From Sphingomonadales bacterium (GTDB lineage: Bacteria > Pseudomonadota > Alphaproteobacteria > Sphingomonadales > Sphingomonadaceae), in assembly GCA_013297725.1 (NCBI GenBank), contig JAAFIB010000001.1, positions 1 to 64,000 of the forward strand: a DNA stretch of 64,000 bases. Direction: 5' to 3'. The position numbers and the translations under genes are program-made. This document shows, in pieces, positions 32,805-55,392 of the stretch. The notes under the pieces were generated by a model. The model was not told the DNA's origin and searched no databases. It saw only the letters and a list, made by a program, of their open reading frames with translations. Each line of letters starts with the position of its first letter. Position 1 is the first letter of the stretch.

Positions 32805-32909
32805 TGTATCGAAAACGAACGATTTCGGTGCAAGCGCCTGAGTTATATCGAAAATTAGCTTGACTTGCATTTCAATACAGCTAGTATTTCAAGCTACGTA
32901 TTCGATACA
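32805..32909. promoter_or_regulatory. Candidate res site with three subsites upstream of resolvase
   Basis: TGTATCGAAAAC..GATTTCGGTGCA (32805-32832), TATATCGAAAAT..ATTTCAATACA (32844-32879), TAGTATTTCAAG..TATTCGATACA (32882-32909). Confidence 0.5.
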
Positions 32910-32918
32910 GAGAGAGTT

Positions 32919-33494
32919 ATGCCACGTACATTTGCATACTGCCGCGTTAGCAAAGCTGACCAATCCTATGAAAACCAACTCCACGAAATTCTAGCCGCTG
33001 GTTTTCAGGTTGATGCAAGGCGAGTGGTTTCAGAAACGGTGTCTGGATCAATTGCTGCTTTTGAACGGAAGGGCTTTCGCAGCCTCGTGAACCGATTGGA
33101 GTGGGATGACGTTTTGATTGTCACAAAGTTGGACCGCCTCGGAAGAAACGCGATGGATGTTCGCGCAACGGTTGAGCGGCTAGCTGAACTACAGGTGCGT
33201 GTTCACTGTCTCGCTCTTGGGGGAACAGACTTAACGAGTGCTGCTGGTAAAATGACAATGGCGGTGATCGCAGCTGTTGCCGAGTTCGAACGCGACCTAC
33301 TGATCGAACGGACGCATGCAGGTTTGGTTCGTGCTAAAGCACAGGGGAAAAAGCTGGGTCGTCCGAGCAGCCTCACCACAGAGCAGCAAGAAGTAATCCG
33401 TTTGCAACGCAAAAAAGGCGTGTCGCTAGGATCACTAGCCAAAGAGTATGACGTGAGCCGGTCCGCTATTCAGCGCGTAGAGCGAACATCCTAA
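32919..33494 (+). CDS. serine recombinase/resolvase family protein
   Basis: MPRTFAYCRVSKADQSYENQ...VTKLDRLGRNAMDV...MTMAVIAAVAEFERDLLIERTHAGL...GRPSSLT...C-terminal HTH. Confidence 0.93.
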   Translation: MPRTFAYCRVSKADQSYENQLHEILAAGFQVDARRVVSETVSGSIAAFERKGFRSLVNRLEWDDVLIVTKLDRLGRNAMDVRATVERLAELQVRVHCLALGGTDLTSAAGKMTMAVIAAVAEFERDLLIERTHAGLVRAKAQGKKLGRPSSLTTEQQEVIRLQRKKGVSLGSLAKEYDVSRSAIQRVERTS

Positions 33495-33988: not shown

Positions 33989-35863
33989 ATGAATATTGAG
34001 ATTTATGGTAATGATGCCCCGGTATTCGAGCTTTGTAACATTGTCCGTAGGCATAAATTACCGTGCCTTTTGGCAATTTTTTTGAATATTTTTTCTTTAA
34101 ATCCAGTACTTTCTCAAACTCCTCCCGCTCAAATTAGCGAACAGTCGGTTGACAAGTTTGGTGTCGAACGAAAAACGGGGCGTGTCGGTTTTTCTTCTCC
34201 GACGTTAATTGAAATTGGCTCAAAGGACGCATCTTTACTAAGTCTGTCCTACAATCATATCGACGGTCTCGACTTAGTGCCAAGTCTTTTGCCACGGCTA
34301 GTCTTTAGTGACTTCTATGATCAGCAAACGCAGACTTCCTATGTTGTAGCAAGTGTTCAATATATTGGAATTGTTGAATCATTCCGAAAGGTTTCAAGCA
34401 CTATTACATTTACTCCGGAATATCCTACTGGCTCTAGTTTGGTTCAGTCAGGCAATGAGATCATTTTTACCGACAAACATGGATTCAAACTTAGATTTGG
34501 TAACCCTATTAAGGCTGAGTATCCAGATGGTCGTGTTATTACTTTCAATGGTTATAGTGGAAATTATGGTATTCCTACATCAGTAGTTAATAATTATGGG
34601 TATGGATTGAAGTTTTCAAACCAGACAAATCGAGTCGAAATTCAAGCTGTAAATTTGACTTCTGATTTCTGTGACATGCAATCTGCTACGCCTTGCAATG
34701 GCCTCTCGCGCATTCGAGGGGCCGCAGTTGATTACTCGCCTACTGAGCGTACATTGACTGACGCAAACGGCGGTCAAACTAAGTATCGGTTTGCTAGTTA
34801 TCAGGCGTATAAATGGAGACCGTATTGTTATGCTGGTGGGGATCTTGGGCAAATAAATTGCCCTAAAGCGGACATTGATGTTCAAAACTATCCTGTCGGT
34901 ATTACATTTCCCGGATCACTAGTTGAAAATATTACAATAGCTTATCAAGGCATCGGTTTATATGGTGCTGCTGGGGTTTCTCATGACGATATTCGAGTGG
35001 CAACTGTTACCAAAAATGGCATCACAGCAACATACAATATAAATTTTTACCAGGTGGGGAGCGCTGGCTACCCTACTCCCAATGCTCCATATTTTCTGCA
35101 AATACAAAGTATGGTAAATGGGCAGCAGGGAACATATTCAGAGGTGCTGCGTCCCACATATAAATGGGGGCGCGGAAGATCGGCGTTGTTGCATGTCAAG
35201 GACGAATTGGGAAGGCGCACCAATTATGGCTTTAACAGCGAGTTGGAGGTTTCTAGTTATACCTCTCCCGAAGGCAATGGTGCCAACAACACCTTCGATG
35301 CGCGTAACAATGTTACTAGGAGTGCGCAGACTGCGAAAACAGGTACTAGCATGCCCGATCTTGAGACACGTTTCACTTATGCCGCCGCTTGCGATGCCTC
35401 GACCTTGATGACATGTAACAAGCCGCTGACTGTGACGGATCCCAAAGGTGCAGTAGCTGAGTATACCTACAACTCCATGGGTCAGATTTTGACGGAGACG
35501 AAACCCGCGCCAGCGCTTGGTGCGCCGCGACCAAAGGTAACTAATAGCTATACGATGCGAACAGCCTACATTGCTGGAGCAAATGGCACCATCGTCGCGG
35601 CAGGCCCACCAATTTCCATGCTTACGCAGTCATCGACATGTAATACGCTATCAACCTGTGCAGGCACAAGTGATGAGGTTCTAACTACCTACGATTATGG
35701 CCCGACCACTGGCTTAAACAATCTCAATCTTAGAGGAATATCGGTTACCGCAGTAGACGGCGCAGGGCAGCTGCAGACTTTACGAACTTGTTATCAATAC
35801 AATTATTTTGGCGAGAAAATTTCTGAAACACCCCCGATGGGAACGGGGAGTTCATGCCCATGA
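33989..35863 (+). CDS. RHS/YD-repeat N-terminal protein (module A)
   Basis: Signal-like N-terminus; YD-like repeats; ends CYQYNYFGEKISETPPMGTGSSCP; overlaps next ORF by ATGA. Confidence 0.75.
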   Translation: MNIEIYGNDAPVFELCNIVRRHKLPCLLAIFLNIFSLNPVLSQTPPAQISEQSVDKFGVERKTGRVGFSSPTLIEIGSKDASLLSLSYNHIDGLDLVPSLLPRLVFSDFYDQQTQTSYVVASVQYIGIVESFRKVSSTITFTPEYPTGSSLVQSGNEIIFTDKHGFKLRFGNPIKAEYPDGRVITFNGYSGNYGIPTSVVNNYGYGLKFSNQTNRVEIQAVNLTSDFCDMQSATPCNGLSRIRGAAVDYSPTERTLTDANGGQTKYRFASYQAYKWRPYCYAGGDLGQINCPKADIDVQNYPVGITFPGSLVENITIAYQGIGLYGAAGVSHDDIRVATVTKNGITATYNINFYQVGSAGYPTPNAPYFLQIQSMVNGQQGTYSEVLRPTYKWGRGRSALLHVKDELGRRTNYGFNSELEVSSYTSPEGNGANNTFDARNNVTRSAQTAKTGTSMPDLETRFTYAAACDASTLMTCNKPLTVTDPKGAVAEYTYNSMGQILTETKPAPALGAPRPKVTNSYTMRTAYIAGANGTIVAAGPPISMLTQSSTCNTLSTCAGTSDEVLTTYDYGPTTGLNNLNLRGISVTAVDGAGQLQTLRTCYQYNYFGEKISETPPMGTGSSCP

Positions 35864-38472
35864 TTAGGAACACTGTGCCGATCAGGTTGGCGCTACTGAT
35901 TTTGATGGGCGTTACGCCTGTGTCTGCAAACGCGCAGTCTGTGCCCTCGGATTATACTTCAGCTGCACGGTACGATTCGCTCGGCCGCGTTATCGGAACG
36001 ATTGCACCTGATCCTGATGGTGTTGGGCCGCGTCCGCGTGCTGCCACGCGCACAACATACGATCTGGCTGGAATGCCGATTAGAGTTGAGAAGGGATTTC
36101 TGACCGAATGGCAGCCAGAGACGGTGGCTCCAATTGCATGGCCCGGTTTTACAATCTCTTCGAGCATCGAAACGAGCTACGATATTGCACGGCGTAAGAT
36201 TAAGGACACAGTAAAAGGTAGTAACGGAGTTGCGGTAACTCTCACCCAATATAGTTATGACGCATTGGGTCGTCTCGAATGCACCGCGGTTCGTATGAAC
36301 AGCGCAGCGTATGCTGCGCTACCTGCCAGTGCCTGCAGTTTGGGTGTCGAAGGAACAGAAGGTCCTGATAGGATCACCAAGATCACCTATAACGCGGCAA
36401 GCGAGCAGATCAAAACCACGTTAGCCTTCGGCACGCCACATCAGGCAGATGACGAAGCCAGCAGCTATACACTCAATGGCAAATTGGAGAGCATCACCGA
36501 CGGTGAAAATAACCGCACGACATTCGAATATGACGGCCACGACCGTCTGGCCAAAACCCGCTACCCGGTCGCATCGGTAGGAGCATTGGCCAGCTCGACC
36601 ACTGATTTTGAGCAGCTGACCTATGATGCTAACAGCAACGTCACACAGCGCCGGTTGCGCGATGGGCAATTGATCAACTCGATATTCGACAATCTCAACC
36701 GGCAAATCACTAAGGACGTTCCGAATATTGCGTACAATGATTTCGATAAAAGTTACACCTATGACCTGATGAACCGTCCGTTAGCCGTTGCCGATGCCAG
36801 TGGCACGATCAGCTACACTTATGACGGATTTGGTCGCCTCCTTACCGAAAGCATGTCGGGTTCGACCGTGAAAACACTAGTCTATGATATCGCCGGACGA
36901 CCGACGCGCCTAACCCATCCTGACGGTTTTTATATCAATTATGATTACGACGTCACTGGCAACGTTATTCAAATCCGTGAAAACGGCGCAACCTCCGGGC
37001 AAGGGGTACTAGCGACCTATGCCTTTGACAATCTGGGCCGCAGGACATCGCTGACCCGGGGCAACGGAACCGTGACCAATTACACTTATGATCCAATTGC
37101 ACGATTAACGGGTTTCACCCACGACCTGGCCGGAACGATCCAAGACCTGAGCGTTAACAGCTTCACCTATAACCCTACCAGTCAGATCACGGGCTATACG
37201 CGCAGCAATGACAGCTATGCATGGAAAGGCCATTACAACGTCAACCGCGCTTATGGCACCAACGGGCTCAATCAATTGACCAGTGCTGGGGCGACAGCGC
37301 TGGGCTATGATCTGCGCGGCAATCTCAATGCATCGGGCAATACAATCTATGACTACACCAGCGAGAACCGCCTTGTTAAAAGCAAAACGACCTATGCGTG
37401 TCCTCCGAAAACCTCATGTCAGCCATCGCCATCTTTCACATTGACATACGACCCTGCTGGCAGGTTGCGCACTGTGGGTGGGAATTTCGCAGCCACAACG
37501 GTCTTTGAACACCTAGGCCAGAGGCTGATCATCGAGCGTGACGACATAGGCACCATCTTGCGCCGATATGTGCATGGGCCCGGCGATGACGAGCCGGTGG
37601 TCTGGTATGAAGGTTCAGGAACGAGTGACAAACGTTGGCTTCACACCGACGAGCGCGGCAGTGTGGTTGCGGTGAGCACAGGCGGCGGGGCTGCATCGAT
37701 CATCAACTCCTATGATGAATATGGCATCCCCGCATCCACCAACGCCGGACGGTTCCAATACACCGGGCAGGTGTGGCTTGCCGAGATCGGCCTCTATTAT
37801 TACAAAGCTCGGATGTACTCGCCCACGCTGGGCCGGTTTATGCAGACTGATCCGATCGGGTATAAAGATGGCATTAACTGGTACGACTATGTCGATGGGG
37901 ATCCAATTAATCGGACTGATCCGACGGGGTTGTCCTGTCAAAATACTGGCACGAGAGGTAAACCAGGGCTGACCTGTAAATTTGATGATAGAGAGTCGTT
38001 CCGTAAGGCTGGCTATTCTAATGAACAAATTCGAGCAGCTGAGGGGCAGTATACGAGGGCCGTGCGCCAGTTGGAGGGCAAGTCTGCTGGAACTGTAGCA
38101 GTTAAAGTGGGTGACGAGTCTTTCAAGGTAGCCGCTGGTGATGTGGCAAATGGTCTTAGGAGAGCCTATGTCACATTTGATGCTGGAACCGGACGCGCAA
38201 GTATGTCGGGTGGGCAACTCCATGGACTAAAGGCGTCAGACGGAGCGAACGGTGGCCTGCCATTCAAGCTAAGGATTGGGAGTGATTTCTTTAAAGAGCA
38301 TTCATCTCGATTTGGACCTCTTGCAACGGAACAGCGGCGGACTTTAATACACGAAGGTATACATACGACGAAGGGAGAAGCTGTTATGACCAATCAGTAC
38401 AAAGCTGGTACGTTTAACGGCGATCATCAGGAGCCTTATAAAGCTGCAGCGACTATATTTGATCAGATGTAG
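35860..38472 (+). CDS. RHS repeat-associated core protein with C-terminal HEXXH tail (module A)
   Basis: Many YD repeats; [46 protein letters not shown] core; tail LIHEGIHTTKGE; ORF track starts at 35854. Confidence 0.9.
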   Translation: MIRNTVPIRLALLILMGVTPVSANAQSVPSDYTSAARYDSLGRVIGTIAPDPDGVGPRPRAATRTTYDLAGMPIRVEKGFLTEWQPETVAPIAWPGFTISSSIETSYDIARRKIKDTVKGSNGVAVTLTQYSYDALGRLECTAVRMNSAAYAALPASACSLGVEGTEGPDRITKITYNAASEQIKTTLAFGTPHQADDEASSYTLNGKLESITDGENNRTTFEYDGHDRLAKTRYPVASVGALASSTTDFEQLTYDANSNVTQRRLRDGQLINSIFDNLNRQITKDVPNIAYNDFDKSYTYDLMNRPLAVADASGTISYTYDGFGRLLTESMSGSTVKTLVYDIAGRPTRLTHPDGFYINYDYDVTGNVIQIRENGATSGQGVLATYAFDNLGRRTSLTRGNGTVTNYTYDPIARLTGFTHDLAGTIQDLSVNSFTYNPTSQITGYTRSNDSYAWKGHYNVNRAYGTNGLNQLTSAGATALGYDLRGNLNASGNTIYDYTSENRLVKSKTTYACPPKTSCQPSPSFTLTYDPAGRLRTVGGNFAATTVFEHLGQRLIIERDDIGTILRRYVHGPGDDEPVVWYEGSGTSDKRWLHTDERGSVVAVSTGGGAASIINSYDEYGIPASTNAGRFQYTGQVWLAEIGLYYYKARMYSPTLGRFMQTDPIGYKDGINWYDYVDGDPINRTDPTGLSCQNTGTRGKPGLTCKFDDRESFRKAGYSNEQIRAAEGQYTRAVRQLEGKSAGTVAVKVGDESFKVAAGDVANGLRRAYVTFDAGTGRASMSGGQLHGLKASDGANGGLPFKLRIGSDFFKEHSSRFGPLATEQRRTLIHEGIHTTKGEAVMTNQYKAGTFNGDHQEPYKAAATIFDQM

Positions 38473-38480
38473 GCAAAGAT

Positions 38481-38972
38481 ATGAATATAAAAATTTATCT
38501 ATTTCCGCTAATACTAAGTAACTGCACTAATGCGGAATTAGATTTTTGTAAAAATGAAAAAATTCAATACGAATACAAAAGTACCGATGGTGATATTTAT
38601 CGATACAGATTTGACCTTAAGCAACAAAAGTTTGTTGTTTATGGCCATCACAAAATGATTGATGAACCAGAGTGGAGTGAAATTTCTCTTGAAACTAAGA
38701 TTAACGATAATTATTTCATTGTGGGTTCCATTTCAATAATCAAAAATATATTTGAAGAATCTTCTTGGAATAAAAATGGTGTGTATTGTAAAAAAATTAG
38801 AGGAAATAAAAACGAAGCTTATGTTGAATGTGATTCTAACAAGTATGCGGGATCTACCAGATATTTATATGATAGTCGTAAAGGAGTGGTATTAATTCAG
38901 GAATACTATAGAAATGGGGTTCAAATTGAGTACAAATCGGTTGGCAAATTTGGACTAGGATACTCCTGTTAG
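38481..38972 (+). CDS. hypothetical putative immunity protein (module A), possible lipoprotein
   Basis: AT-rich ORF immediately after RHS tail; N-terminus MNIKIYLFPLILSNCTNAELDFCKNE. Confidence 0.6.
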   Translation: MNIKIYLFPLILSNCTNAELDFCKNEKIQYEYKSTDGDIYRYRFDLKQQKFVVYGHHKMIDEPEWSEISLETKINDNYFIVGSISIIKNIFEESSWNKNGVYCKKIRGNKNEAYVECDSNKYAGSTRYLYDSRKGVVLIQEYYRNGVQIEYKSVGKFGLGYSC

Positions 38973-39097: not shown

Positions 39098-39589
39098 ATG
39101 CCTAGCTATATTCACATTATTTTTGTGCCCGCTGACGAAAACGGTCTGCGGCAAACCTTGGGCGACACGCATTGGCCCGTAACGGTTACATCAGCGCAGG
39201 ACCGGGTGTTTGTGGCAGGGACTGTTTAGTTCGGTGGCGATGGACGAGGAGTATTTGCATCAAGCATTCCGCTATGTCGCGCCAAACCCTGCGTGCGCAC
39301 AACTGGTAAAGCGACCGGAAGACCCGCTCTGGTCGAGCGTGAATGCGCATTTTACAAAGGCAGACGATCATGTCGTTAAAGTCTTGCCCGCCTAGGAACG
39401 TGTTGGCGACTTCCGTGTCTTTCTCGGCCAAGAGTTCGAGGAAGCGATGAGGTATGCCGCGCTGCGTAAAGCTAAAAGCGTGGGCCGTCCGATTGAGTCG
39501 AAAGAATGGCTGTCAGATATAGAGGCAAAGACCGGATTGATGCTGATTCCACAAAGCGCGAACCGAAACCCGCTGCAAAGTAAAATCTG
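39098..39589 (+). pseudogene. Degraded REP-associated tyrosine transposase (RAYT)-like gene
   Basis: Fragments in different frames: MPSYIHIIFVPADENGLRQTLGDTHWPVTV / LWQGLFSSVAMDEEYLHQAFRYVAPNPACAQLVKRPEDPLWSSVNAHF / ERVGDFRVFLGQEFEEAMRYAALRKAKSVGRPIESKEWL. Confidence 0.75.
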
Positions 39590-39693: not shown

Positions 39694-40023
39694 ATGCTTT
39701 CAATTACAAAGCCGCTGCAAATAATTGCCGCTATTGGCGTCACTCTTCTCCCCAGCATTGCCTTCGCCCAAGAACTCTCGACTGATCCGCAGGGATCGGG
39801 CGTGGTCGTCAATGCGATGCGCTGGATGCAGGGGACGTTGCTTGGAACGGTGGCAACCGCAGCAGCGGTGATCGCGATCGCCTCGGTCGGCTTTCTGATG
39901 CTGACCGGGCGTATCAACTGGCGGCACGGTGCGGTGGTAATCTTGGGCTGCTTTATCCTTTTTGGCGCAGCGAGCATCGTTGCTGGAATCCAATCGGCGG
40001 CAACGCTGACCGGTGCTGGCTGA
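39694..40023 (+). CDS. virB2: TrbC/VirB2 family pilin-like protein
   Basis: Signal peptide; TVATAAAVIAIASVGFLMLTGRINWRHGAVVILGCFILFGAASIV. Confidence 0.85.
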   Translation: MLSITKPLQIIAAIGVTLLPSIAFAQELSTDPQGSGVVVNAMRWMQGTLLGTVATAAAVIAIASVGFLMLTGRINWRHGAVVILGCFILFGAASIVAGIQSAATLTGAG

Positions 40024-40312
40024 CCCTGTGGCGCAGCTGGAACAGGACCGATTGTTCGTGGCGTTGACGCGGCCTCAGATGTTTGCAGGTGTCACATATA
40101 GCTTTTTTGTCATTAACGCGGTGCTTGCAGCGGAATTGTTCCTGATCTTCAAATCGCTTTGGGTGCTTGCACCGGCGCTAATCCTGCACGGACTTGCGGC
40201 ACTCTATTGCCTGAAAGAACCGAGAATCATCGATATCTGGCTCACCCGGTCGCGGCATTGCGGGCGCGTTCGTAATTATAGTCTGTGGCGATGCAACTCT
40301 TACCGTCCTTAA
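40013..40312 (+). CDS. virB3: VirB3 family protein (GTG start)
   Basis: DRLFVALTRPQMFAGVTYSFFVINAVLAAELFLIFKSLWVL...KEPRIIDIWL. Confidence 0.85.
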   Translation: MLADPVAQLEQDRLFVALTRPQMFAGVTYSFFVINAVLAAELFLIFKSLWVLAPALILHGLAALYCLKEPRIIDIWLTRSRHCGRVRNYSLWRCNSYRP

Positions 40313-42657
40313 GCCGCGATCCCAAAATCATTGCCCGCGAGAAACCGGCGGGCGTGCATTTGCCCTATGCGGCGCAGCGTGATGATTACACGATAGAGAC
40401 CCGCGATGGCCTATTGATGCAGTGCATTGCGTTGCGCGGTATGTTGTTTGAAACAGCCGACAGTGACGAGCTCAATTACCGAAAAGTTCTGCGCGACGCG
40501 ATGCTGCAATCGATCGGCTCTTCGCGCTTTGCGCTCTATCATCATATCATCCGGCGCAAGGTCGATATGGGGTTGGAAGGGGTGTTCCCGGATAGCTTCT
40601 CGCAAAGTCTAGATGACAAATGGCGCGCAAGGCTTGGGCAGCGTCAGCTCTATGTGAACGAGCTCTATCTGACTTTGGTGCGCAGGCCGTTGCAGGGCGG
40701 GCTTGGCATCGCTGACCGGCTGCGCGGATGGTTGGGGGCAGCGGACAACGATCGCGCTGCCAATTTTGCAACTGAGGTGCGGCAGCTGAATGCAGCGCGC
40801 GAAGCGTTGATGGCAGCGCTTGGTCAATATGGCCCGCGGCTTTTGACGGCGTATGAAAGCGAGGGCGGGCTTTATTCAGAGCCGGTGGAGTTTTTAAGCG
40901 CACTGTTCAATGGCGAGCTTGCCCCTGTGCAGCTGCCCTATGAAGATTTGGGGCTGCATATCCCTTCGCGACGGATCAGCTTTGGCCGCAATGCTATCGA
41001 GCTATCGGCTAATGGCCATATGGACCGCCGGTTCAGCGCGATTGTGTCAGTCAAAGATTATGCGGCGCACACGACGCCGGGTATGTTCGATGCCTTGATG
41101 CGGTTGCCGTGCGAGATGACCGTCAGCCAGTCCTTTGCTTTTGTTGATCGGCAATTGGCACTTGGCAAAATGAACCTAGCTTTGCGCCGGATGCGGTCAG
41201 CCGAGGATGAAGCTGTATCCCTGCGCAGCGAACTGTCCGACGCAAAGGATCAGGTTGCCGCAGGCCGCGCAGGCTTTGGCGAGCATCATATGAGCGTTGC
41301 TGTGCATGGCGAGACGCTTGAGGAAATTGACCGCCATGTCGCCGATGTCACCGCATCGCTTGCCGATCTGGGCATCAATGCGGTGCGGGAGGATATTGGC
41401 CTAGAGACGACATTCTGGGCGCAGTTTCCAGCCAACTTCAAATATATTACCCGCAGTGCGATTGTCTCGACCGGCAATTTTGCAGGGCTTGCAAGCGGGC
41501 ATAATTTTGCTGTGGGAACGCCAAGCGGCAATCATTGGGGCGAGGCGGTATCGCTGCTTGAGACCACAGCGGCGGGGCCGTATTTCTTTAACTTTCACCA
41601 TGGCGATCTGGGTAACTTTACGGTCATTGGCCCGTCTGGTTCCGGTAAGACCGTGGTGCTCAATTTCCTTTTGGCACAAGCACGCAAATATGATCCGCGC
41701 ATTATCTTCTTTGACAAAGATCGCGGTGCCGACCTGTTCATTCGCGCGATGGGCGGCAGTTATGACCGGCTGCATCCCGATGTTCCCTCGGGGCTCAATC
41801 CGTTGCAGCTCGAAGATAATCCAACGAACCGCCAGTTTTTGATCGATTGGGTGGCGCAATTGGCAGGCGGGGTGAGTGTTGAAGAAAAGGCGCAGATCAA
41901 GGACGCCATTGACGCCAATTTTGCGCAACCCAAACCGCATCGCCGCCTAAAGCATTTGGTCGAACTGTTTAGAGGCGGTGCGCGCCCGCATGGTACCGAC
42001 CTATGGTCCAGATTGAAGCCATATTGGGGTAATGGCGAACATGCGTGGCTGTTTGATAACAGCAAAGATGGAACCGACCTGACGGCGCGTGTGGTCGGAT
42101 TTGATATGACCGCGATCCTTGATGATCCGCAATTGCGAACGCCTGCCATGATGTATCTGTTCCACCGCGTCGAACAGCGGCTTGACGGGACGCCTGCCAT
42201 TATCGTTGTGGATGAAGGCTGGAAGGCACTCGACGATGACGTCTTTGTCCGGCGGATCAAGGATTGGGAGAAGACCATCCGCAAGCGCAATGGCATTGTT
42301 GGTTTCGCAACGCAAAGTGCCCGCGATGCGCTTGATTCCAAAATTGCGAGCGCGATTATCGAACAGGCCGCAACACAGATTTTCATGGTCAATCCCAAGG
42401 CGGCGCACGAGGATTATTGCACAGGCTTTGGTCTGACCGAGCATGAGCTTGATCTGGTCAGGACGCTGCCCGACAGCGCACATTGTTTCTTGATCAAACA
42501 TGGCGGCGAAAGCGTTGTCGTGCGGCTTGACCTGACAGGGGAGCCTGAATTGCTGACCGTCCTGTCAGGCCGCGAAAAGACTGTGCGGATGGCCGATGAA
42601 CTGCGCGCGAATGATAAATCCAACTGGCTGCAAAAGCTTTTGGAGCAAGTGGTATGA
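40285..42657 (+). CDS. virB4: VirB4 family T4SS ATPase
   Basis: GNFTVIGPSGSGKTVVLNFLLAQARKYDPRIIFFDKDRGADLFIRAMGG; IIVVDEGWKALDDDVF; GFATQSARDAL. Confidence 0.95.
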   Translation: MAMQLLPSLSRDPKIIAREKPAGVHLPYAAQRDDYTIETRDGLLMQCIALRGMLFETADSDELNYRKVLRDAMLQSIGSSRFALYHHIIRRKVDMGLEGVFPDSFSQSLDDKWRARLGQRQLYVNELYLTLVRRPLQGGLGIADRLRGWLGAADNDRAANFATEVRQLNAAREALMAALGQYGPRLLTAYESEGGLYSEPVEFLSALFNGELAPVQLPYEDLGLHIPSRRISFGRNAIELSANGHMDRRFSAIVSVKDYAAHTTPGMFDALMRLPCEMTVSQSFAFVDRQLALGKMNLALRRMRSAEDEAVSLRSELSDAKDQVAAGRAGFGEHHMSVAVHGETLEEIDRHVADVTASLADLGINAVREDIGLETTFWAQFPANFKYITRSAIVSTGNFAGLASGHNFAVGTPSGNHWGEAVSLLETTAAGPYFFNFHHGDLGNFTVIGPSGSGKTVVLNFLLAQARKYDPRIIFFDKDRGADLFIRAMGGSYDRLHPDVPSGLNPLQLEDNPTNRQFLIDWVAQLAGGVSVEEKAQIKDAIDANFAQPKPHRRLKHLVELFRGGARPHGTDLWSRLKPYWGNGEHAWLFDNSKDGTDLTARVVGFDMTAILDDPQLRTPAMMYLFHRVEQRLDGTPAIIVVDEGWKALDDDVFVRRIKDWEKTIRKRNGIVGFATQSARDALDSKIASAIIEQAATQIFMVNPKAAHEDYCTGFGLTEHELDLVRTLPDSAHCFLIKHGGESVVVRLDLTGEPELLTVLSGREKTVRMADELRANDKSNWLQKLLEQVV

Positions 42658-43859
42658 GTTGCACTGCACCTCCCACTGGCTCTGGGTTCTTAGCGACGAC
42701 CCTTAATAATCTCGACTGCCAAGCGCAGACCATAGGCGGCGGCGGCTATCAGGCGCTTGCCGCTTCGGGGTCGCCATTGTCGTTTGCGTTGACCGCGCTG
42801 TTGGCCATTTTTGTCGCTGTGATCGGCATTCGTTTCCTCACGGGTCGTCCGCTGGGCCTTGATGAATGGGTGGCAAGCGCGTTGAAGGTGGGTTTTGTCT
42901 TGGCGCTGACCGCCAGCTGGCCCGCCTACCGCACTGCAGTTTACGATGTTGTGCTCAAAGGACCGGCAGAGATATCTGCGTCCATCGGTCAAGCTTCGGC
43001 TTTGCCGGGATCTGACGGCGGATTGGCGGCCCGGCTGCAAGGCGTGGACAATGGCATTATGGCGCTTGTGGTCGCTGGTAGCGGACGGCTCGATGCCTCG
43101 TCGCGCGTGCCGCAAGGCGCCGTTGCGCCGCCAATGGCTGACGATACTGCGCTGGGCTGGGGGAAGACGCTGTTCGTTGCGAGCATCATCAGTAGCTTTG
43201 GACTGCTGCGTCTGGCGGGCGGGCTATTCCTTGCCCTTGCGCCGCTGTTTGCGGGCTTCCTGTTGTTTGATGCCACGCGCTTCCTGTTCTTTGGATGGCT
43301 GCGTTCGCTGATCGCGGTTGCAATCGGGTCAATCGGCCTTGCTATCGTGCTGGGGGTTCAACTGGCGATTATCGAGCCATGGCTGAGCCAAGTGCTGGCA
43401 TACCGCGCTGCCCGGATTGCGACCCTCTCTGCACCGTTCGAGCTGCTTGCACTGACGCTGGCGTTTTCGCTTATCATGCTGGGCATGTTTGCGCTTGTGC
43501 TGCGGATTGCCTTTGCGTCGGCGGTTGTCACCAAGGTACAGGCGGTGATCGAACGCGCAGCGCAAGGCTTCCCAAGTGAAGCTGCAGTAGGACGATCCAC
43601 GAATACTGCAGCCAACGACAATCTGTCCGAACGAACGCGCGCGCAAGAGATTGCACAGGTGATGAAGCAAACGCTCGACCGAGAGGGTAAAGGGGCTTCG
43701 GGATTGACCAGTAATGGCGGAATGCCGGACCGTGCTTCGCTAATTGGTAGCGCGCAGCGCGCAACTGGAACCAACAACCCAGTCCCGCTTGGCCGCAGCT
43801 ATCCGGCACCCTCGCGCCGCGTCGGCAATCAAGCCCTCAAACGAAAACCTGCATCATGA
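42654..43859 (+). CDS. virB6: VirB6/TrbL family T4SS membrane protein
   Basis: Multi-TM protein between virB4 and virB8; GRPLGLDEWVASALKVGFVLALTASWPAYRTAVYDVV. Confidence 0.85.
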   Translation: MSCTAPPTGSGFLATTLNNLDCQAQTIGGGGYQALAASGSPLSFALTALLAIFVAVIGIRFLTGRPLGLDEWVASALKVGFVLALTASWPAYRTAVYDVVLKGPAEISASIGQASALPGSDGGLAARLQGVDNGIMALVVAGSGRLDASSRVPQGAVAPPMADDTALGWGKTLFVASIISSFGLLRLAGGLFLALAPLFAGFLLFDATRFLFFGWLRSLIAVAIGSIGLAIVLGVQLAIIEPWLSQVLAYRAARIATLSAPFELLALTLAFSLIMLGMFALVLRIAFASAVVTKVQAVIERAAQGFPSEAAVGRSTNTAANDNLSERTRAQEIAQVMKQTLDREGKGASGLTSNGGMPDRASLIGSAQRATGTNNPVPLGRSYPAPSRRVGNQALKRKPAS

Positions 43860-44641
43860 CAACCGATACACGCGAAAAACTCGACGATTATTATGCTAAT
43901 GCTGGAAGCTGGGCGGACGAGCGCACGCAATCAATCTACGCATCGCGCAAAGTTGCTTGGATCGTTGCGATGGTAGCAACGGCTATCGCTTTTCTGCTTG
44001 CCATTGCGATCGTCTTTATGCTGCCGCTAAAGACGGTCGAGCCGCATACGCTTCTGGTCGATAAGCAAACCGGTTTTGTGCAAGCCCTTGATCCGTCCAA
44101 ACCGCAACAGATTGCGCCCAGCAAGGCGCTGACCCAGTCCTTCCTCGTCCAATATGTCGAGGCACGTGAAGGGTTCGATATCGCAACGGTGCAGGGCCAG
44201 TTCAAAAAGGTGGCGCTCTGGTCGTCGGGCCCCAACAAAAGCCGCTATGTGGGCGCGATGCAGGCGACCAACCCCGAAAGCCCTTTGGCGCAACTCCCGC
44301 GCAGCACAGTGATCGAAGTGACGGTGCGCTCGGTCTCGCAGCTTTCGGACAATAGCGCTCTGGTGCGCTTTGCCCGCGTTCGCCGTGACCAAGGCGGCAC
44401 CGAGCAACCGACTGAGAACTGGGTCGCAGTCATCAAATATCGCTATTCCAATGCGCCCATGACGGTCGAGGATCGCTATGTGAACCCGCTGGGTTTTGAG
44501 GTGATTGATTACCGCAAGGATGCCGAAACGCTTACCGTTGAACCTTCAGCGTCAGCGCTTCCGCCTGCTAATGTGTCAGCGCCGCTTCCCGGCCCCGTCG
44601 CGTCGCCCCCCAACCCACAACCACAAGCGCCAGTCCGGTGA
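43856..44641 (+). CDS. virB8: VirB8 family protein
   Basis: SRKVAWIVAMVATAIAFLLAIAIVFMLPLKTVEPHTLLVDKQTGFVQ; NPLGFEVIDYRKDAET. Confidence 0.9.
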   Translation: MTTDTREKLDDYYANAGSWADERTQSIYASRKVAWIVAMVATAIAFLLAIAIVFMLPLKTVEPHTLLVDKQTGFVQALDPSKPQQIAPSKALTQSFLVQYVEAREGFDIATVQGQFKKVALWSSGPNKSRYVGAMQATNPESPLAQLPRSTVIEVTVRSVSQLSDNSALVRFARVRRDQGGTEQPTENWVAVIKYRYSNAPMTVEDRYVNPLGFEVIDYRKDAETLTVEPSASALPPANVSAPLPGPVASPPNPQPQAPVR

Positions 44642-45327
44642 GGCTGTTGCTCGCCTCGATGGTGTTGGCTGCGATGCCAGCAAGCGCACAAACTTATCCG
44701 CAGCCCGGCGACGGCGATCCGCGCATTCAGACCGTTGAATATAATCCTGCGCAGATTGTGCGGTTGTCGGTTGCACCGGGCGTACAGACATTGGTCGAGC
44801 TGGCCCCCGGCGAAACCATTCAGACCATCGGCGTTGGCGACAGTGCGGCGTGGCAGGTGTCAGCGGGCAAGCGCGGCGATTTCTTCTTTGTGAAGAATGT
44901 CAGCGCAAGTGCCATCACCAATATGAGCGTAGTGACTGCAGGCCGTGTCTATAATTTCGAACTGGCACCGCCGGGCGGCTATGGTGAAACAAGCGCCTAT
45001 CATGTCAAAGTCATCTATCCGGCCCCATCGCGGGGGACGGCGACGGTCAATATCGAGCCAAGCTTTGAATACAGCCTATCGGGCGCAAAGGCGATCCGTC
45101 CAGCGAGCGTGTATCAAGAAGGGATGCGCACGATTATCGAATGGCCCGAAGACGTAGCACTGCCCGGAATCTTTATGATCGAAAATGGCAACGAGGCGCT
45201 GGTCAATGGCGAAATGCAGGATGGGCGCTTTGTCATTCCGGGAACGCCCGAGAAGCTGGTGTTCCGGCTCGACCGCAAAACCGCTTATGCGACGCGTAAA
45301 GCGATGAAGGGGGGCAATGATGAGTGA
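44638..45327 (+). CDS. virB9: VirB9/TrbG family protein (GTG start)
   Basis: GDPRIQTVEYNPAQIVRLSVAPGVQTLVELAPGETIQTIGVGDSAAWQVSAGKRGDFFFVKN. Confidence 0.92.
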   Translation: MRLLLASMVLAAMPASAQTYPQPGDGDPRIQTVEYNPAQIVRLSVAPGVQTLVELAPGETIQTIGVGDSAAWQVSAGKRGDFFFVKNVSASAITNMSVVTAGRVYNFELAPPGGYGETSAYHVKVIYPAPSRGTATVNIEPSFEYSLSGAKAIRPASVYQEGMRTIIEWPEDVALPGIFMIENGNEALVNGEMQDGRFVIPGTPEKLVFRLDRKTAYATRKAMKGGNDE

Positions 45328-46390
45328 AGCACTTCCCCTTGATGAGACCTTACCGCTGGTCGGCGAGGATCGCGGCAACCGGAGCCTTTGGTTGGGTTTG
45401 GGCGGGATCATGCTGAGCGGTATTTTGCTGTTTACAGGTCTTGAGGCTAACCGCCGGTCGAACGACGCGCCTGTTGTCCCGTCACCCAGAGACTATGCCA
45501 TCGCTACCGCACCGCGCGCAGAGCTTTTGATCCCCGAAAGCTATGGTCCTATGGGGCCGCAAACCCCCGGCTTGGTGCCGCTGAGTGCATCGCCGGTTCC
45601 CTTAACACCACAACTGCCGCCGGTTCGACTAACGCGGACGCGCCCGCCTGTGGATGTGGCTTCAATAGCGCCGCAAGCACCAGTACCCAGCTATGCCCCG
45701 CCGCCGCTGCAACCAGCAGCCCCTGAGCCGGGCCGAAGTGCGCCGGGGATCGTCTATGATATTGCGCAGGCAGCGGTCGCTGCAGTGACAGGCGCAACCA
45801 GCGCTACGCCACAAGCGACAAAGGCTATGGCGGTGGGTGGTGGTGATCGCACCTATCTCGTATCGCAAGGTACGCTGATCTATGCTGTCCTTGAAACCGC
45901 GCTCGATTCCACACAATCAGGTCAGGTGCGTGCGATGATCTCAACGCCCGTATACAATGCGCTTGGCACACAGATACTCGTCCCCAAAGGCAGCAAATTG
46001 TTTGGTGAGTATAAGGGCGATCTTGGCACAGGGCAGAACCGCGCAGCGATTATCTGGACGCGCCTGATCCGTCCCGACGGCGCAACGATATCATTGGATT
46101 CTCCTGCATCCGACCAATTGGGCCGGGCAGGGATCAAGGGCAGCGTCGATACGCATTTTGGTGAGCGGCTTTTGGGCGCGCTCCTGCAATCCACTATCGA
46201 CTTTGGAGCGGCGGTCGCCTCTCGTGCGGTCACTAGCAGCAACGGTGTGGTTGTTGCGCTTCCCAATACAGCACAGGGAGCAACTTCGCAGCTGATCCAA
46301 CCTCCACCCAAGCCGACGTTGAAGGTCCGGCACGGCACGCGCATTGCCGTGTTCGTCGCGCGTGATCTTGATTTTTCCGCAGTCGAGTGA
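45317..46390 (+). CDS. virB10: VirB10/TrbI family protein
   Basis: YLVSQGTLIYAVLETALDSTQSGQVRAMISTPVYNALGTQILVPKGSKLFGEYKGDLGTGQNRAAIIWTRLIRPDGATI. Confidence 0.95.
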   Translation: MMSEALPLDETLPLVGEDRGNRSLWLGLGGIMLSGILLFTGLEANRRSNDAPVVPSPRDYAIATAPRAELLIPESYGPMGPQTPGLVPLSASPVPLTPQLPPVRLTRTRPPVDVASIAPQAPVPSYAPPPLQPAAPEPGRSAPGIVYDIAQAAVAAVTGATSATPQATKAMAVGGGDRTYLVSQGTLIYAVLETALDSTQSGQVRAMISTPVYNALGTQILVPKGSKLFGEYKGDLGTGQNRAAIIWTRLIRPDGATISLDSPASDQLGRAGIKGSVDTHFGERLLGALLQSTIDFGAAVASRAVTSSNGVVVALPNTAQGATSQLIQPPPKPTLKVRHGTRIAVFVARDLDFSAVE

Positions 46391-46396
46391 CGCTGT

Positions 46397-47368
46397 ATGG
46401 GTGAGACGGTCTATCTCGAACATTATCTAGGCCCGCTTGGGCCCTATCTGGAAGCAAGCGACGTCACCGATATCTATATCAACCGCCCTAATGTGATATG
46501 GGTCGAGCGCTTGGGCGGGTTGGCCGAGCGCATCGCTATCAGAGGGCTCGATAGTGCGATCCTTGAACGACTATCGCGCCAGATCGCTGCACAATCTGCA
46601 CAGGGGATCAGCCGCGAACATCCCTTGCTCTCGGCAAGCCTGACTGACGGATCGCGCGTGCAGATTGCGTTGCCGCCTGCAACACGCGGTGATGTTGCTA
46701 TCGCTATCCGCAAATATGTCGTCAATGATCTCGACATTGATGCCTATGCGCAAGCAGGTGCGTTCGATGCGTTGGCCACGCAGACAGCGCGAACGCCTGT
46801 GCAAGCGGATCTCAAGGCATTGCAACAGAAGGGTGACTTTGCGGGCTTGTTAAAAACCGCGGTCAAAGAGCGGTGTAACATCTTTATCTCTGGCGGCACA
46901 TCGAGTGGAAAGACCACATTCCTCAACGCGCTTTTGAAAGAGGTCGATCGTGCCGAACGATTGATCCTGATCGAGGACACACCGGAGCTTAAAATCGCGC
47001 ATGAAAATGCCATCGGCCTCATTGCATCGCGTAGCGCGCTCGGCGAAGCGGTGGTATCGATGGAGGACTTACTCAATGCATCTCTCAGGATGCGGCCTGA
47101 CCGGATTATCCTTGGCGAGTTGCGCGGACCTGAGGCATTCACATTCCTGCGCGCCGTGAACACCGGCCACCCCGGATCGATGACCACGATCCACGCCGAC
47201 AGCCCCGAACGCGCGATTGAACAGTTGGTGCTGCTGGTGCTGGAATCAGGGACGCATCTCGATCGGGAGAGCATCGCCCATTACGTCCGCTCGAGCATCG
47301 ATGTTTACGTCCAGCTTGGGCGCATCGACGGGCGACGGGTGGTTACGGCCATCGAGCTGCGCCAATGA
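46397..47368 (+). CDS. virB11: VirB11 family T4SS ATPase
   Basis: NIFISGGTSSGKTTFLNALLKEVDRAERLILIEDTPELKI...LRMRPDRIILGELRGPEAFTFLRAVNTGHPGSMTTIHAD. Confidence 0.95.
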   Translation: MGETVYLEHYLGPLGPYLEASDVTDIYINRPNVIWVERLGGLAERIAIRGLDSAILERLSRQIAAQSAQGISREHPLLSASLTDGSRVQIALPPATRGDVAIAIRKYVVNDLDIDAYAQAGAFDALATQTARTPVQADLKALQQKGDFAGLLKTAVKERCNIFISGGTSSGKTTFLNALLKEVDRAERLILIEDTPELKIAHENAIGLIASRSALGEAVVSMEDLLNASLRMRPDRIILGELRGPEAFTFLRAVNTGHPGSMTTIHADSPERAIEQLVLLVLESGTHLDRESIAHYVRSSIDVYVQLGRIDGRRVVTAIELRQ

Positions 47369-47751
47369 TCGCCGCCGTCATCCAGCAAGCAAGCCTTGCT
47401 GACGCGCCGCCAACCGGAGCGATTGGTGCTTCTGCGAGCTGGGTCAGTGGTCTGCTCTTTGGTCCGCTCGCCACAACAATAGCCGTCATCGCTATAGCTT
47501 GGCTTGGCTTTTCGATGCTTTCAGGCAGGATCGATATCCGGCGTGGGCTTGCGGTCGTGTTTGGATGTTTCTTGCTGTTCGGGGCGAGGGGGATTGCAGA
47601 TGGGCTGCGATCATCGGCTGTGAACGAGGTTGTCCCCCCTGCTGCAAGCGGTCCACCGCCGCCGAACTTTGCCAAACCGCAACCGGTCGCCAATACGCCT
47701 AATGGATATGACCCCTATGCTGGAGCGGCTGTGATGCGGCCAGAGCCGTGA
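47365..47751 (+). CDS. Second TrbC/VirB2 family protein
   Basis: LLFGPLATTIAVIAIAWLGFSMLSGRIDIRRGLAVVFGCFLLFGARGIADGL, clearly paralogous to 39694-40023. Confidence 0.85.
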   Translation: MIAAVIQQASLADAPPTGAIGASASWVSGLLFGPLATTIAVIAIAWLGFSMLSGRIDIRRGLAVVFGCFLLFGARGIADGLRSSAVNEVVPPAASGPPPPNFAKPQPVANTPNGYDPYAGAAVMRPEP

Positions 47752-48080: not shown

Positions 48081-48689
48081 ATGCGGCTTTGTGTGCCATC
48101 GATACAATTTGGGTTTTCCGCTGGTCTTGCAGCGATTGTCTATGTGCTGCCCGCAACGGCCCATGCATCTGAAACTGTCACGCATCAATATGATGAATTG
48201 GGACGCTTGATTTCAAGTAGTAAGTCGGGCGGGCCTGCGACAGGATCTCAAACGACGACTGCTTATGACCCCGCTGGGAACCGTTCCAATCAGACCACAA
48301 GCGGTGTATCTGGAGGCGGTGGAACACCACCACCACCACCACCACCACCACCTCCTCCTCCTCCTCCGCCGCCGCCATCGGGCAATTTGCCACCTGTTGC
48401 AAATGCAGATTCTGTGTCTGTTCTGTGCACTGCCACAACAACGATCAATGTTACCGCTAACGATACTGACCCCGAGGGTAATCTGCCATTAACAGTTCTG
48501 TCAGTCACTTTGCCGCCGCTCGATACTGCATCGGCAACCGTTATTTCGGCAAGCTCAATTCAGGTGAATGGCGCATCCTTTGCCCAATCAACTGCTGCGA
48601 CATACTCGGTGAAAGACTCGCTGGGGGGAACATCGACGGGCAATCTGACCATAGTTACTACAGGGACCTTCGCGCAATGTTCACAATGA
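48081..48689 (+). CDS. small secreted YD-repeat protein with poly-Pro linker and Ig/cadherin-like C-terminus (module B)
   Basis: Signal peptide; SETVTHQYDELGRLISSSKSGGPATGSQTTTAYDPAGNRSNQTTSG; 17 consecutive Pro; PPVANADSVSV...TVTANDTDPEG-like domain. Confidence 0.8.
   Translation: MRLCVPSIQFGFSAGLAAIVYVLPATAHASETVTHQYDELGRLISSSKSGGPATGSQTTTAYDPAGNRSNQTTSGVSGGGGTPPPPPPPPPPPPPPPPPSGNLPPVANADSVSVLCTATTTINVTANDTDPEGNLPLTVLSVTLPPLDTASATVISASSIQVNGASFAQSTAATYSVKDSLGGTSTGNLTIVTTGTFAQCSQ
48327..48377 (+). repeat. Trinucleotide repeat (CCA)8(CCT)5(CCG)3CCA encoding Pro17
   Basis: Read directly. Confidence 0.95.
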
Positions 48690-50539
48690 CAGTGGGGGCA
48701 GATCCTATGGCACAGATTTCGACAATCAAGTGGCGTGGTATGCAGAAGCGGGCAGTTATTGGGCGCATTATTTTTCTTGCGCTTTTATCGACTGCATCCA
48801 CCGCCTACGCGCAGGAACGCCCGGCGGGTTTTGAACCACTCAAATCTATTACCGATCCTAACGGCGTGGATTTGCTGTCCGGCAAGATTACTTTTCCTGT
48901 GCCACCGCTCTCTGCGCCTGTTGCGCCCGAATTGTCGATCACTCGTATTCAGGATATTGTAAACTATCTCTCAGGCTCCCGTTTCATCGGCCTTGCCGGA
49001 GAACCGCAGACCAATGCTGATCTTCGGATCGGAGAGGGCACCTCAGAGCGCTTCGAGTGCCCTGCAGACACTTGTGCCTCCCAATCTGGACGTCATGGCG
49101 CGCTGGTAGGGAGCCCAGGGTTTACACTCGGTGCGCCCGGATTGTTCGTTTTCACGCAAGGTGGGACCGGAAAGCAAATTCGCTACGATCAAACTGCTTC
49201 GCAAGTTATCACAGGCGGAACGCAGCCGGGGCAAGGCAACAACACGTTTGCCTATTGGGCGTCACAGATCATATATCCGGATGGGATCACCCTCGATTTT
49301 GGATATGACACTTATGTAGTCTCTGCAATAACGAGAAATTTGAGGCCGACCACGGTAACGTCCAATCGCGGTTTCCAGTTGCGGATTACCTACGCCAGCA
49401 ACGATCCAGTGAATGTAGGATGGGCTGTTCCGTCTGCGGCAGCAATTTACCGCGAAGGAGAATTTACAACGCCGATTGCAAGCGTCACTTATCCAGCAGG
49501 TGGCGCAAGCGACATGGCGGGAGCTGTCTGGACGGGCAATTTGCAAAACACTTTAGGGGTGAACGGCAATATTGCGGCAGGCGGGTATCGACCGCCAACA
49601 AATACTTCTGATCAGATTGTCGCTTCCTCAACGGTGAGCGATGAAAGGGGGCCGCTTCTGACTTCGGTGGTGAAGGGTGGGACGCAAACATGGAACTATG
49701 CCTATTCGCACGCGCTGAATAATAGCATCACAAACAGCCCGTATGTGGTGGGCCGTACCGTTACGATCACCGGACCATCAAGCTACTTTCGTAAGGTCTG
49801 GATCACCGAGGGGCGCAAGGCCAACGCTGCTAAAGCTGCGATCACCAAGGAACAAGACGCGCTGGGCCGCATTACGCTTATCACCAACGACACTTTTGGT
49901 CGAGTGACAAGGCTGCAAATGCCCGAAGGTAACGCCGTCGAGATTGTCTACGCTCCGATTATGGGTCACATCACGAAGAAGACCGTTAAGGCCAAAACTG
50001 GTTCTGGCCTTCCAGACATAGTTGAGGAGGCAACATTCCCGACCGATCCGCTATGCGCAGACAATGCTTTTGCCTATTGCTACCGCCCGCTAACGGTCAA
50101 GGATGCAAAGGGCAATATCTCCGATTATGAGTGGACCAGCTTTGGTGCTCTCTCCAAGGAAACCAAGCCTGCTGACCCTAGTGGCATCCGCCCTGCGCGC
50201 CGTATTGAATATGTCCAGCGCTTTGCATGGTATAACAATGGCAGCGGCTCTTTTGTGCGCTCGCCGTCCGGCATCATGCTGAAATCGAAAGAACGCACAT
50301 GCAAGACTACCGCAACGGTCGGCAATGCCTGTGTGGGCGGCGCAACTGATGAAGTTGTCACCGATTATGATTACGGTCCTGACAGCGGCCCCAACTATCT
50401 ATTGCTACGCGGCATCACCGTCACCGCGACCGGCAGCAGCGGCGTATTGGAAACGCTGCGCACCTGTTTTACCTATGACGCACAGGGGCGCAAAATATCC
50501 GAGACGCAGCCTATGGGAACAGGGAGCACCTGCCCATGA
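48677..50539 (+). CDS. RHS/YD-repeat N-terminal protein (module B)
   Basis: Signal peptide [24 protein letters not shown]; ends [28 protein letters not shown] overlap with next ORF. Confidence 0.8.
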
Positions 50540-53310
50540 TCCGCACTGCTCTTACGCTGCGTACCTCAGCCCGCGCCATTGCCATTGGCACATTGCTCCT
50601 CGCTCCATCGCTGGCCTTTGCGCAAGCCGCTCCATCGGCTTACACATCGGCCACCCGTTATGATGCGGCCAACAGGCCAACGGGCACCATCGCGCCAGAC
50701 CCTGATGGAACAGGCCCACTGCAATTTGCGGCATCACGCACAACCTATGATGCATCAGGCCGCGTGACCAAGGTTGAAACAGGCGAGCTTGCGGTGTGGA
50801 AGCCTGAAAGCATCGCCCCCTCGGCATGGGGCGCGGACTTTACCGTCCTGTCCAGTGTAGAGACCGTCTATGACACGCTCGACCGCAAGGTACAGGATAT
50901 TGGTAAATCCTCGACCGGTGTAGTCGTCTCTGCTGCGCAATACACTTACGATGTCCAAGGACGTCTTGATTGCGCTGCAACGCGGATGAACCTGTTGACC
51001 ATTCCTGCTGTCGGTAGCAACGCTTGCACGCTTGGTACAGCAGGCAGCTTTGGCGGGGATCGGATCACCAAAAATGTCTATGATGTTGCCAGCCAGCTGC
51101 TGGTGGTCAAAAAAGCGTTCGGCACTGCGCTGCAACAGGATTATGTCACCTATACCTATACTAATAACGGTAAACAGGCGACGGTGAAGGACGCCAATGG
51201 CAACCTTGCGACCTATCGCTATGATGGTCATGACCGGCTAGCCGCGTGGCGTATGCCTAGCAAAACCAATGGTGCAGTCTCGGCAAGCTGTAACATCGGC
51301 ACTATCGCAGAAGTCGGCGGCATCACCGGTCCGGTTAATACCCGCAACGCCAGCGACGATTGCGAGAAATACTCTTATGATCGCAATGGCAACCGTGCAA
51401 AGCTGGTAAAGCGCGATGGCAGCGTCATTGCGTATACATATGACAACCTCAACCGCCCGACCGTTAAACACGTTGACGCAACCAACCTGCGCACGACACT
51501 CGCTGCCACGCACAAACGCGATGTGTATTACGGCTATGACCTTCGCGGGCTCCAGCTTTATGCAAGGTTCGACAACGCAACTGGTGAGGGTATCACGACC
51601 AGCTATGATGGCTTTGGCCGCGCCAATGCCTCGTCGCTTATTATGGACGGTGTTACGCGCAACTTGTCTTATGTTCGCGACAAGAATGGCAATCGCAGCA
51701 AATTTGACTGGTTCGACGCCACACGGACCAGCTATGACTATGATGGCTTGAACCGGATGAAGACCGTGTATGAAGGCCCGCAAGCGAGCAACATCAACAT
51801 GCTGACTTATGCGTATAACAATCGCGGGATGCGCAGCAGCCAGACAGGGCGGTTTGCGCAGGTCTCGACGTTTACGCCCGACACCGCCGGTCGCCTCGCC
51901 AGCATCGTGCATGACACCACCGGCACGGCAAACGACGTCACTTATGGCCTTGATGCCTATAGCCCGTCCAGCCAAGTGACGCAGCGCAGCACATCGAACG
52001 ACGCTTATGTCTGGACCGGCGCTGTCAATGTCAGCCGCAATTATGCGGTCAACGGCCTCAATCAATATACCAGTGCAGGACCTGCCGTTTTCGGCTATGA
52101 TGCCAATGGCAACCTGACGTCGGATGGCACGAACAGCTATGGCTATGATGTGGAAAACAGATTGATCCAAGCATCAGGCGGCAGCAACGCAACGATGCGT
52201 TATGATCCTATGGGGCGCTTGTATGAAACCAGCGCGGGGACGGTTGCGACCACGACGCGGTTCCTGCACGATGGCGATGAGCTGGTGGCGGAGTTTAACG
52301 GCACTGGCACATTGCTACGCCGCTATCTCCACGGGGTCAGCGTTGATGATCCGGTCGTGGCGTATGAAGGCAGCGGCACTGCCAATCCCAAATGGCTACA
52401 CAGCAACCATCAGGGCAGCATTGTTGCGATCAGCGATAATACAGGCGCAGTGACGGCCAAGAACACGTTCGACGAATGGGGCATCCCCGGCAACGGTAAC
52501 GCCAGCGTGGCAGCAGGAGGGCGGTTCAGCTACACAGGCCAAGCATGGCTACCCGAGCTTGGCATGTATTATTACAAGGCGCGGATTTACTCACCCACGC
52601 TGGGCAGGTTCATGCAGACTGATCCTGTGGGGTATAAGGATCAAATGAACCTGTACGGGTATGTAGGGAATGATCCGGTTAATAAGGTTGATCCAAGCGG
52701 TTTATGTACTACTGGAACACTTGTAAGGAATAGCACTGCCGTGCAGTGTCGTGTTTTAGCGGTTTACTCAGAATCTCCCCCTGCCGGTTCAAAAACAATA
52801 AATCCACAAAGTCCTAGTGCGGTCAATGGGCACGCGCAAACCGGCGACGGTTCAGATAGGTATGCTGACTTCACAACAGTTAGTATTGCTGATTTGGGTG
52901 GTTCATTGAATTCGTACGCTCAGCAGGCCGGTTCACCTTTAAATGACGCAATTATTGAAGCCGCTAAGACTGGAGAGCCAGTGGGTCTCACTATAACTGA
53001 CCTAAATGCCGGAGGACAAATCGGAGGTAAAACTCCATATGCACAGCAAACCGCAATTGGACGATTTGCTGTGAATGTATATTTGACTGTGAATGCAAAA
53101 AAGAATGGAGCATTTGAAATAAATGCAAGAGTTGCAGGTGTACGTGATAGACAAGATTATTTGCATGATAAAAATCGAAGTGCAATAGGTAATATATTAA
53201 CAGCTGAAGGAAAAAGAAAACAACAAAAAGGAGGTGGAAAAGATTATGATATTTATTTCTATGGAGAGCAGTACATCGTTGCAACCGGAATAGTTCATTA
53301 TGCTAAATAA
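50536..53310 (+). CDS. RHS repeat-associated core protein with variable C-terminal tail (module B)
   Basis: Signal peptide; YD repeats; [46 protein letters not shown] core followed by unrelated tail. Confidence 0.92.
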
Positions 53311-53614
53311 AATAGTAATTTTAAGTCTTTTTTTATTGAATGGATGCGTCAATACTGAATATTGCTCCGATATCAGTGATAGTATTATTATCAAACGAAT
53401 AAATATATCTTTAGAGGAGTCAAAAAAAACGTCTAAAAATGGATTAGTTCTATCAAAATACGAAATGAAATTTTTAAAAGATAGCAAAGTTGATAGAAAT
53501 TCGCTGTCTTATGATGAAAGTTCAGTTGCTCTAGTCACATATGAATATCAAGCAAATCCTGTTTTTCAGGCAAGAATTTATAAAGACTGCGAGATTCAGT
53601 GGATATTTATTTAG
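53300..53614 (+). CDS. small predicted lipoprotein, putative immunity protein (module B)
   Basis: [22 protein letters not shown] lipobox-like; AT-rich; overlaps RHS stop. Confidence 0.6.
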
Positions 53615-53820: not shown

Positions 53821-54075
53821 TTAGGCAATCCCGCCAACAAAGCCCGCCGTATCTTGTGGCGCGGGCATGGCCATGCGCATTGCACCGCCGCACCCGCGCT
53901 GGCGACAACGGGCGCGATTTTCAACTTCCCCCAATGTTAGCCGCTCTTTTCCTTTGCGCGCATGAAGCTCTGCCCCAGTCAGCCACCTAAATGTCCCACA
54001 TTTCCGGCAAGTCAATTCCAGACGGTCGCTTGCCTCTAAATCGAGAATTTGGATGTTGCTTTTCCAGTTCACCAA
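53821..54075 (-). CDS. small Cys4 zinc-ribbon-like hypothetical protein
   Basis: LTCRKCGTFRWL...NRARCRQRGCGGAM; overlaps the end of the Y-polymerase gene. Confidence 0.65.
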   Translation of the reverse strand: MVNWKSNIQILDLEASDRLELTCRKCGTFRWLTGAELHARKGKERLTLGEVENRARCRQRGCGGAMRMAMPAPQDTAGFVGGIA

Positions 54076-55313: not shown

Positions 55314-55345
55314 AAGTCTTGCTCGAACCAGGCAGGCGAGCATAA

Positions 55346-55360: not shown

Positions 55361-55392
55361 ATAATTGCAAGGCAAGGAATCGGGGTAACGCT

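Follow-up and report, generated by a model that had tools for sequence, protein, structure and literature searches.

The window analyzed here is a 64,000-nucleotide stretch of DNA from a Sphingomonadales bacterium (GenBank assembly GCA_013297725.1, contig JAAFIB010000001.1, positions 1 to 64,000). It contains a VirB-type type IV secretion system (T4SS) operon at positions 39694-47751, which sits between two cassettes of RHS genes within a 35.7-kb integrative island at a tRNA-Ser gene. The operon genes lie on the + strand in the order B2-B3-B4-B6-B8-B9-B10-B11-B2', as they had been read in an earlier note made from the sequence alone. All nine were identified by Pfam, and B3, B4, B8, B9, B10 and B11 additionally by NCBIfam. 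The first gene, virB2 (39694-40023; Pfam TrbC/VirB2, E 3e-15), encodes a pilin with a signal peptide. It is followed by virB3 (40013-40312; Pfam, 7e-24), the ATPase gene virB4 (40285-42657; TIGR00929, 7.5e-216; TrwK structure match, 2e-138), virB6 (42654-43859; Pfam TrbL/VirB6, 1.6e-18), virB8 (43856-44641; Pfam, 1.4e-53), virB9 (44638-45327; TIGR02781, 8.5e-41), virB10 (45317-46390; NF038091, 5e-54), the ATPase gene virB11 (46397-47368; TIGR02788, 2e-104), and the gene for a second VirB2-like protein, B2' (47365-47751; Pfam TrbC/VirB2, 4e-13). Walker motifs are retained in VirB4 and VirB11. The presence of both ATPases, of the inner-membrane components VirB6 and VirB8, and of the outer-membrane core components VirB9 and VirB10 identifies the system as a VirB-type (P-type) T4SS.

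Intergenic distances across the operon range from -28 to +6 bp, and therefore neither VirB5 nor VirB7 is encoded inside it, in agreement with the earlier note. The + strand of the operon shows no small open reading frame (ORF) bearing a lipobox. The absence of VirB1 likewise holds for the island. A VirB1-like transglycosylase is encoded elsewhere in the genome, where, together with DUF1800/DUF1501 proteins, it precedes a second, resident VirB set (G000:C72:91407-98645; L142:8406-15645) with the order B2-B3-B4-B6-B9-B10-B11. This distant set contains no VirD4 and no recognizable VirB8.

Coupling proteins and relaxases were searched for across the source genome (3.02 Mb, 148 contigs, 99.99% complete) with the profiles PF02534, PF10412, PF03432, PF03389 and PF08751. 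Divergent forms were sought in the island with Pfam on the main ORFs and PADLOC on the ORFs lacking an assignment. VirD4 is absent genome-wide: the sole match to PF02534, in an 887-aa frame, has an E value of 0.43, and PF10412 matches only HerA-like ATPases (by inspection) and the P-loops of VirB4/VirB11. An island-encoded HerA protein (29593-31452) was considered as a VirD4 candidate because of a weak match to the TrwB P-loop, but was rejected as a member of a SIR2-HerA defense pair. Pfam found no relaxase among the island ORFs, and MOBP (PF03432) and MOBQ (PF03389) relaxases are absent from the whole genome. The only relaxase gene of the searched families, a TrwC (MOBF) gene on another contig (G000:C61:84675-87610), is split over two reading frames. 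Its neighbors read as ordinary chromosomal genes (mreB/mrdA-like), and no coupling protein is recognizable near it. The element thus lacks both a VirD4-type coupling protein and a relaxase of its own, as the earlier note had described, and neither a coupling protein nor a usable relaxase of the searched families was found in the genome, which argues against conjugation with parts supplied in trans.

The RHS cassettes each consist of two RHS halves followed by a gene for a putative lipoprotein immunity protein, all on the + strand. In cassette 1, the N-terminal half (33989-35863, 624 aa, Pfam RHS_repeat) is a paralog of that in cassette 2, and precedes a core/tip half (35854-38472, 872 aa, Pfam) with HEGIH in its tip. 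The putative immunity gene (38481-38972) has no Pfam match, and was assigned from its position and N-terminus only. Cassette 2 is preceded by a gene for an exported accessory protein (48081-48689, +) with a YD motif, a poly-proline linker and a Big_9 domain (Pfam), whose relatives stand 5' of RHS genes in other loci (tblastn). It comprises an N-terminal half (48677-50539, 620 aa, Pfam RHS_repeat), a core/tip half (50536-53310, 924 aa, identified by Pfam and by matches to RHS structures), and a putative immunity gene (53300-53614) assigned on the same grounds as the first. Each RHS protein is thus in two pieces, with ~620 aa in the N-terminal half and ~900 aa in the core/tip half, and the N-termini of both halves are signal-peptide-like by inspection. 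In relatives, the two halves form a single polypeptide: alignments covering both in order were obtained for 25 long frames, some of these being overlapping records of the same gene. The two cores are 43% identical as far as the DPxGL boundary, beyond which the tips are unrelated. A conserved core and boundary with variable C-terminal tips is the mark of polymorphic toxins, and arrays of orphan tips were found in relatives. The RHS array of G001 contains, between RHS genes, an orphan virB2 copy (L032:15288-15521) that is 90% identical over 78 aa.

To place the operon among its relatives, 80 loci were gathered with the VirB4 query from Sphingomonadales and Caulobacterales, and 50 whole genomes containing such an operon were examined. 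The search also returned one contig from a Verrucomicrobiaceae metagenome-assembled genome, which may be misbinned. Gene order is largely kept. VirD4 occurs within 10 kb of a single locus out of the 80 (L073), relaxase/helicase-like genes lie near six, and a PF02534 protein is wholly absent from 19 of the 50 genomes. RHS genes, tallied directly on 10-kb windows around the VirB loci, stand beside the operon in 25 of the 50 whole-genome windows, where fewer than one would be expected by chance (from ~130 RHS matches over ~194 Mb). The VirB4 tree requires 16 or more switches of this linkage. Genomes of the same genus that contain only the resident VirB4, ~57% identical, among them G003, G004, G006, G007, G018, G034 and G040, gave no RHS match. 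VirB loci lacking RHS genes often contain genes for other apparent signal-peptide proteins, of the phage-tail-collar, beta-helix and DUF4331 types. Phage-tail-collar proteins with signal peptides are encoded between B2 and B3 in L099 (6397-10028) and after B11 in L084 (17260-18500), and are possible alternative cargo.

The B2' gene, directly after virB11, shows a related pattern. B2' has no evident signal peptide by inspection, and its proline-rich tail ends in YDPYAGAAVMRPEP, in which the motif YDPYAGA[SA] near the C-terminus is conserved among relatives. The position and orientation of the gene around the operon vary among loci. The gene tends to occur where RHS does: 29 loci contain both, 31 contain neither, and 6 + 6 are discordant (Fisher p 1.7e-8; for L098 the scoring used a motif that differs slightly, and without this locus the table reads 28/31/7/6). 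Among independent pairs on the tree, 6.2 agree versus 0.3 (median p 0.03). An arginine-rich loop lies between the two hydrophobic stretches of B2', so that both ends of the protein are predicted to face the periplasm, where Sec-exported cargo would be. B2' is possibly the element that recruits cargo in place of VirD4, for which it is the best candidate.

RHS toxins are known from type II (T2SS) and type VI (T6SS) secretion system settings. The source genome contains no VipB, and its sole secretin is Tad/CpaC-like; delivery of the RHS proteins by a T6SS or a T2SS was rejected here on these grounds. Across genomes, the T2SS secretin GspD is missing from 16 of the 27 with VirB beside RHS, and is present in 11 of the 16 with RHS but no VirB4. 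G011, which belongs to the same genus and has no VirB4, contains an apparently complete T2SS operon inside an RHS array (L035-L036; G011:C4, the whole 39-kb contig), placed as the VirB operon is placed here. T2SS-RHS islands are also present in G064 and G087, and in damaged or truncated form in G062 and G093. A divergent, unrelated protein adjoining GspE in G011 bears the YDPYAGAS motif once. The other T2SS islands lack it, and the match may therefore be coincidental; YDPYAGA was rejected as a general motif of T2SS-RHS islands and is taken as no more than a hint.

The island itself has the features of an integrative element, with an integrase adjoining a tRNA and a flanking direct repeat. Its left end is formed by the last 17 bp (20817-20833) of tRNA-Ser(GGA) (20744-20833, +, ARAGORN), and its right end by a direct repeat of these 17 bp (56570-56586, +). 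A tyrosine integrase (Pfam Phage_integrase/Arm-DNA-bind_3) is encoded at 21014-22243 (+). The SIR2-HerA anti-phage defense pair occupies 29593-32402 on the - strand (PADLOC; HerA 2e-171, SIR2 7.6e-160). A serine resolvase gene (32865-33494, +) adjoins RHS cassette 1, and a small number of the related VirB loci contain resolvases too. Remnants that resemble a REP-associated transposase by inspection (39098-39431) separate cassette 1 from virB2. A divergently arranged Y-family DNA polymerase and SRAP-domain gene (54069-55998) lie at the far end of the island.

We consider it somewhat probable, from gene content and linkage, that the operon encodes a VirD4-less, Ptl-like VirB T4SS that carries Sec-exported RHS polymorphic toxins across the outer membrane, for use against competing bacteria. 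Ptl, which is known to operate in two steps, shares the lack of VirD4, VirB1 and VirB5, an absence by which Ptl-like two-step T4SSs are defined (PMC8402538, PMC12857230). In the mechanism that we infer, Sec would export the RHS halves of both cassettes to the periplasm, where the halves would probably assemble as a shell around the toxin tip. The YDPYAGA tail of B2' would recruit this cargo in the place of VirD4, and the VirB machine would then take it out of the periplasm through the outer membrane, against competitors.

Several observations weigh against this mechanism. RHS genes are missing within 10 kb of roughly half of the VirB loci, and many genomes carry RHS genes without this VirB. 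At 1400-1500 aa, the RHS chains would be bulky cargo for a VirB channel. A VirB7 for the outer-membrane complex was not found in the operon, although a distant, unlinked gene is possible. The signal-peptide assignments and the topology of B2' come from inspection and hydropathy. The assignment of both toxin tips is weak and insecure: tip 2 has a slight likeness to the colicin M catalytic domain (Pfam Colicin_M, E 0.0034, below the cut-off; PDB, E ~0.6), and its single-sequence AlphaFold model has a pLDDT of 39 and is unusable. Colicin M acts in the periplasm, and such an activity would suit a lipoprotein immunity protein, though neither tip is secure.

The RHS proteins might instead reach the outside by another route, for example in vesicles, through lysis or via an unrecognized outer-membrane exporter, and simply accompany VirB in islands devoted to competition. 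The presence of the RHS family in genomes without VirB, and far from VirB in genomes that have it, is consistent with this explanation, as is the unrelated SIR2-HerA defense pair in the same island. We regard it as unlikely, because linkage between VirB and RHS is far above chance across many genera, a gene of the VirB family itself co-varies with RHS, and the source genome offers no T2SS or T6SS as a substitute. A little less likely again is a surface pilus for adhesion, with the RHS genes incidental. Bartonella Trw also has no VirD4, and shares with this operon the possession of VirB2 paralogs, of which there are two here (PMC12857230); but this operon contains no copy of VirB5, the tail of B2' shows conservation instead of variability, and the presence of B2' tracks that of RHS.

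The earlier note had left two options, a mobilized or partner-dependent element and a T4SS serving protein secretion or a surface function. The second is favored because VirD4 is missing throughout and because, both here and in many relatives, the operon is flanked by RHS cassettes whose products have signal-peptide-like N-termini. A mobilizable element whose conjugation system is a remnant or depends on a partner would account for the integrase and tRNA-Ser location, and for the six related loci with a relaxase/helicase-like gene nearby and the one with VirD4. It is improbable given a genome devoid of a coupling protein or an intact relaxase of the searched families, and the mobilized reading is unsupported because loci from two orders share the lack of VirD4, which is not the picture of a local loss. 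Least probable, and in our view very nearly dismissible, is a DNA-uptake machine like Helicobacter ComB. ComB lacks VirD4 and VirB5 as well (PMC12857230), but VirB11, absent from ComB, is present here, and DNA uptake would leave the island setting and the RHS linkage unexplained.

T4SSs without VirD4 are already known, including Ptl, the Brucella system, ComB and Bartonella Trw (PMC12857230). Closest to the proposed toxin exporter is Ptl of Bordetella pertussis, in which a VirB core without VirD4, VirB1 and VirB5 is encoded adjacent to cargo with signal peptides. In the present system, VirD4 is absent genome-wide, VirB1 from the island and VirB5 from the operon, but the putative cargo consists of RHS polymorphic-toxin chains, an extra B2' with a conserved tail is present, no VirB7 was found, and the operon is located in an integrative island. 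Bartonella Trw shares the lack of VirD4 and the presence of more than one VirB2 paralog, and differs in that our operon lacks copies of VirB5, has only one B2', whose tail is conserved, and stands beside RHS genes. In the bacteria-killing X-T4SS of Xanthomonadales, VirD4 recruits XVIPCD effectors from the cytoplasm (PMC6536674). It likewise links a VirB machine to antibacterial effector and immunity genes; here, in contrast, VirD4 is missing and the cargo looks Sec-exported. The Sphingomonadales T2SS-RHS islands in G011, G064 and G087 resemble this island in having the same RHS family arrayed around a secretion operon whose cargo would be periplasmic, the machine being a T2SS there and a VirB T4SS here. 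Classical RHS toxins share the conserved core, the DPxGL boundary, the variable tips and a small downstream gene, whereas those described here are made as two putatively exported halves and joined to a T4SS.

According to a 2012 survey, T4SSs are apparently not among the systems that serve classical polymorphic toxins. No report joining VirB with RHS in sphingomonads, or a VirB system with classical polymorphic toxins, was found in the open-access literature, although one may exist outside it. The tie between a VirB system and polymorphic toxins therefore seems new. A more specific proposal, which we offer tentatively and hold to be possible at most, is that VirB2 was duplicated into a substrate receptor, whose periplasmic YDPYAGA tail captures Sec-exported RHS shells for the VirD4-less machine, making T4SS and T2SS interchangeable outer-membrane exporters of one polymorphic-toxin family. 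If export of RHS toxins by this VirB system is borne out, bacteria that are common in the environment would offer an accessible model of a VirB system paired with Sec-type RHS toxins, in which B2' is the candidate receptor and the T2SS-RHS islands are a natural control.
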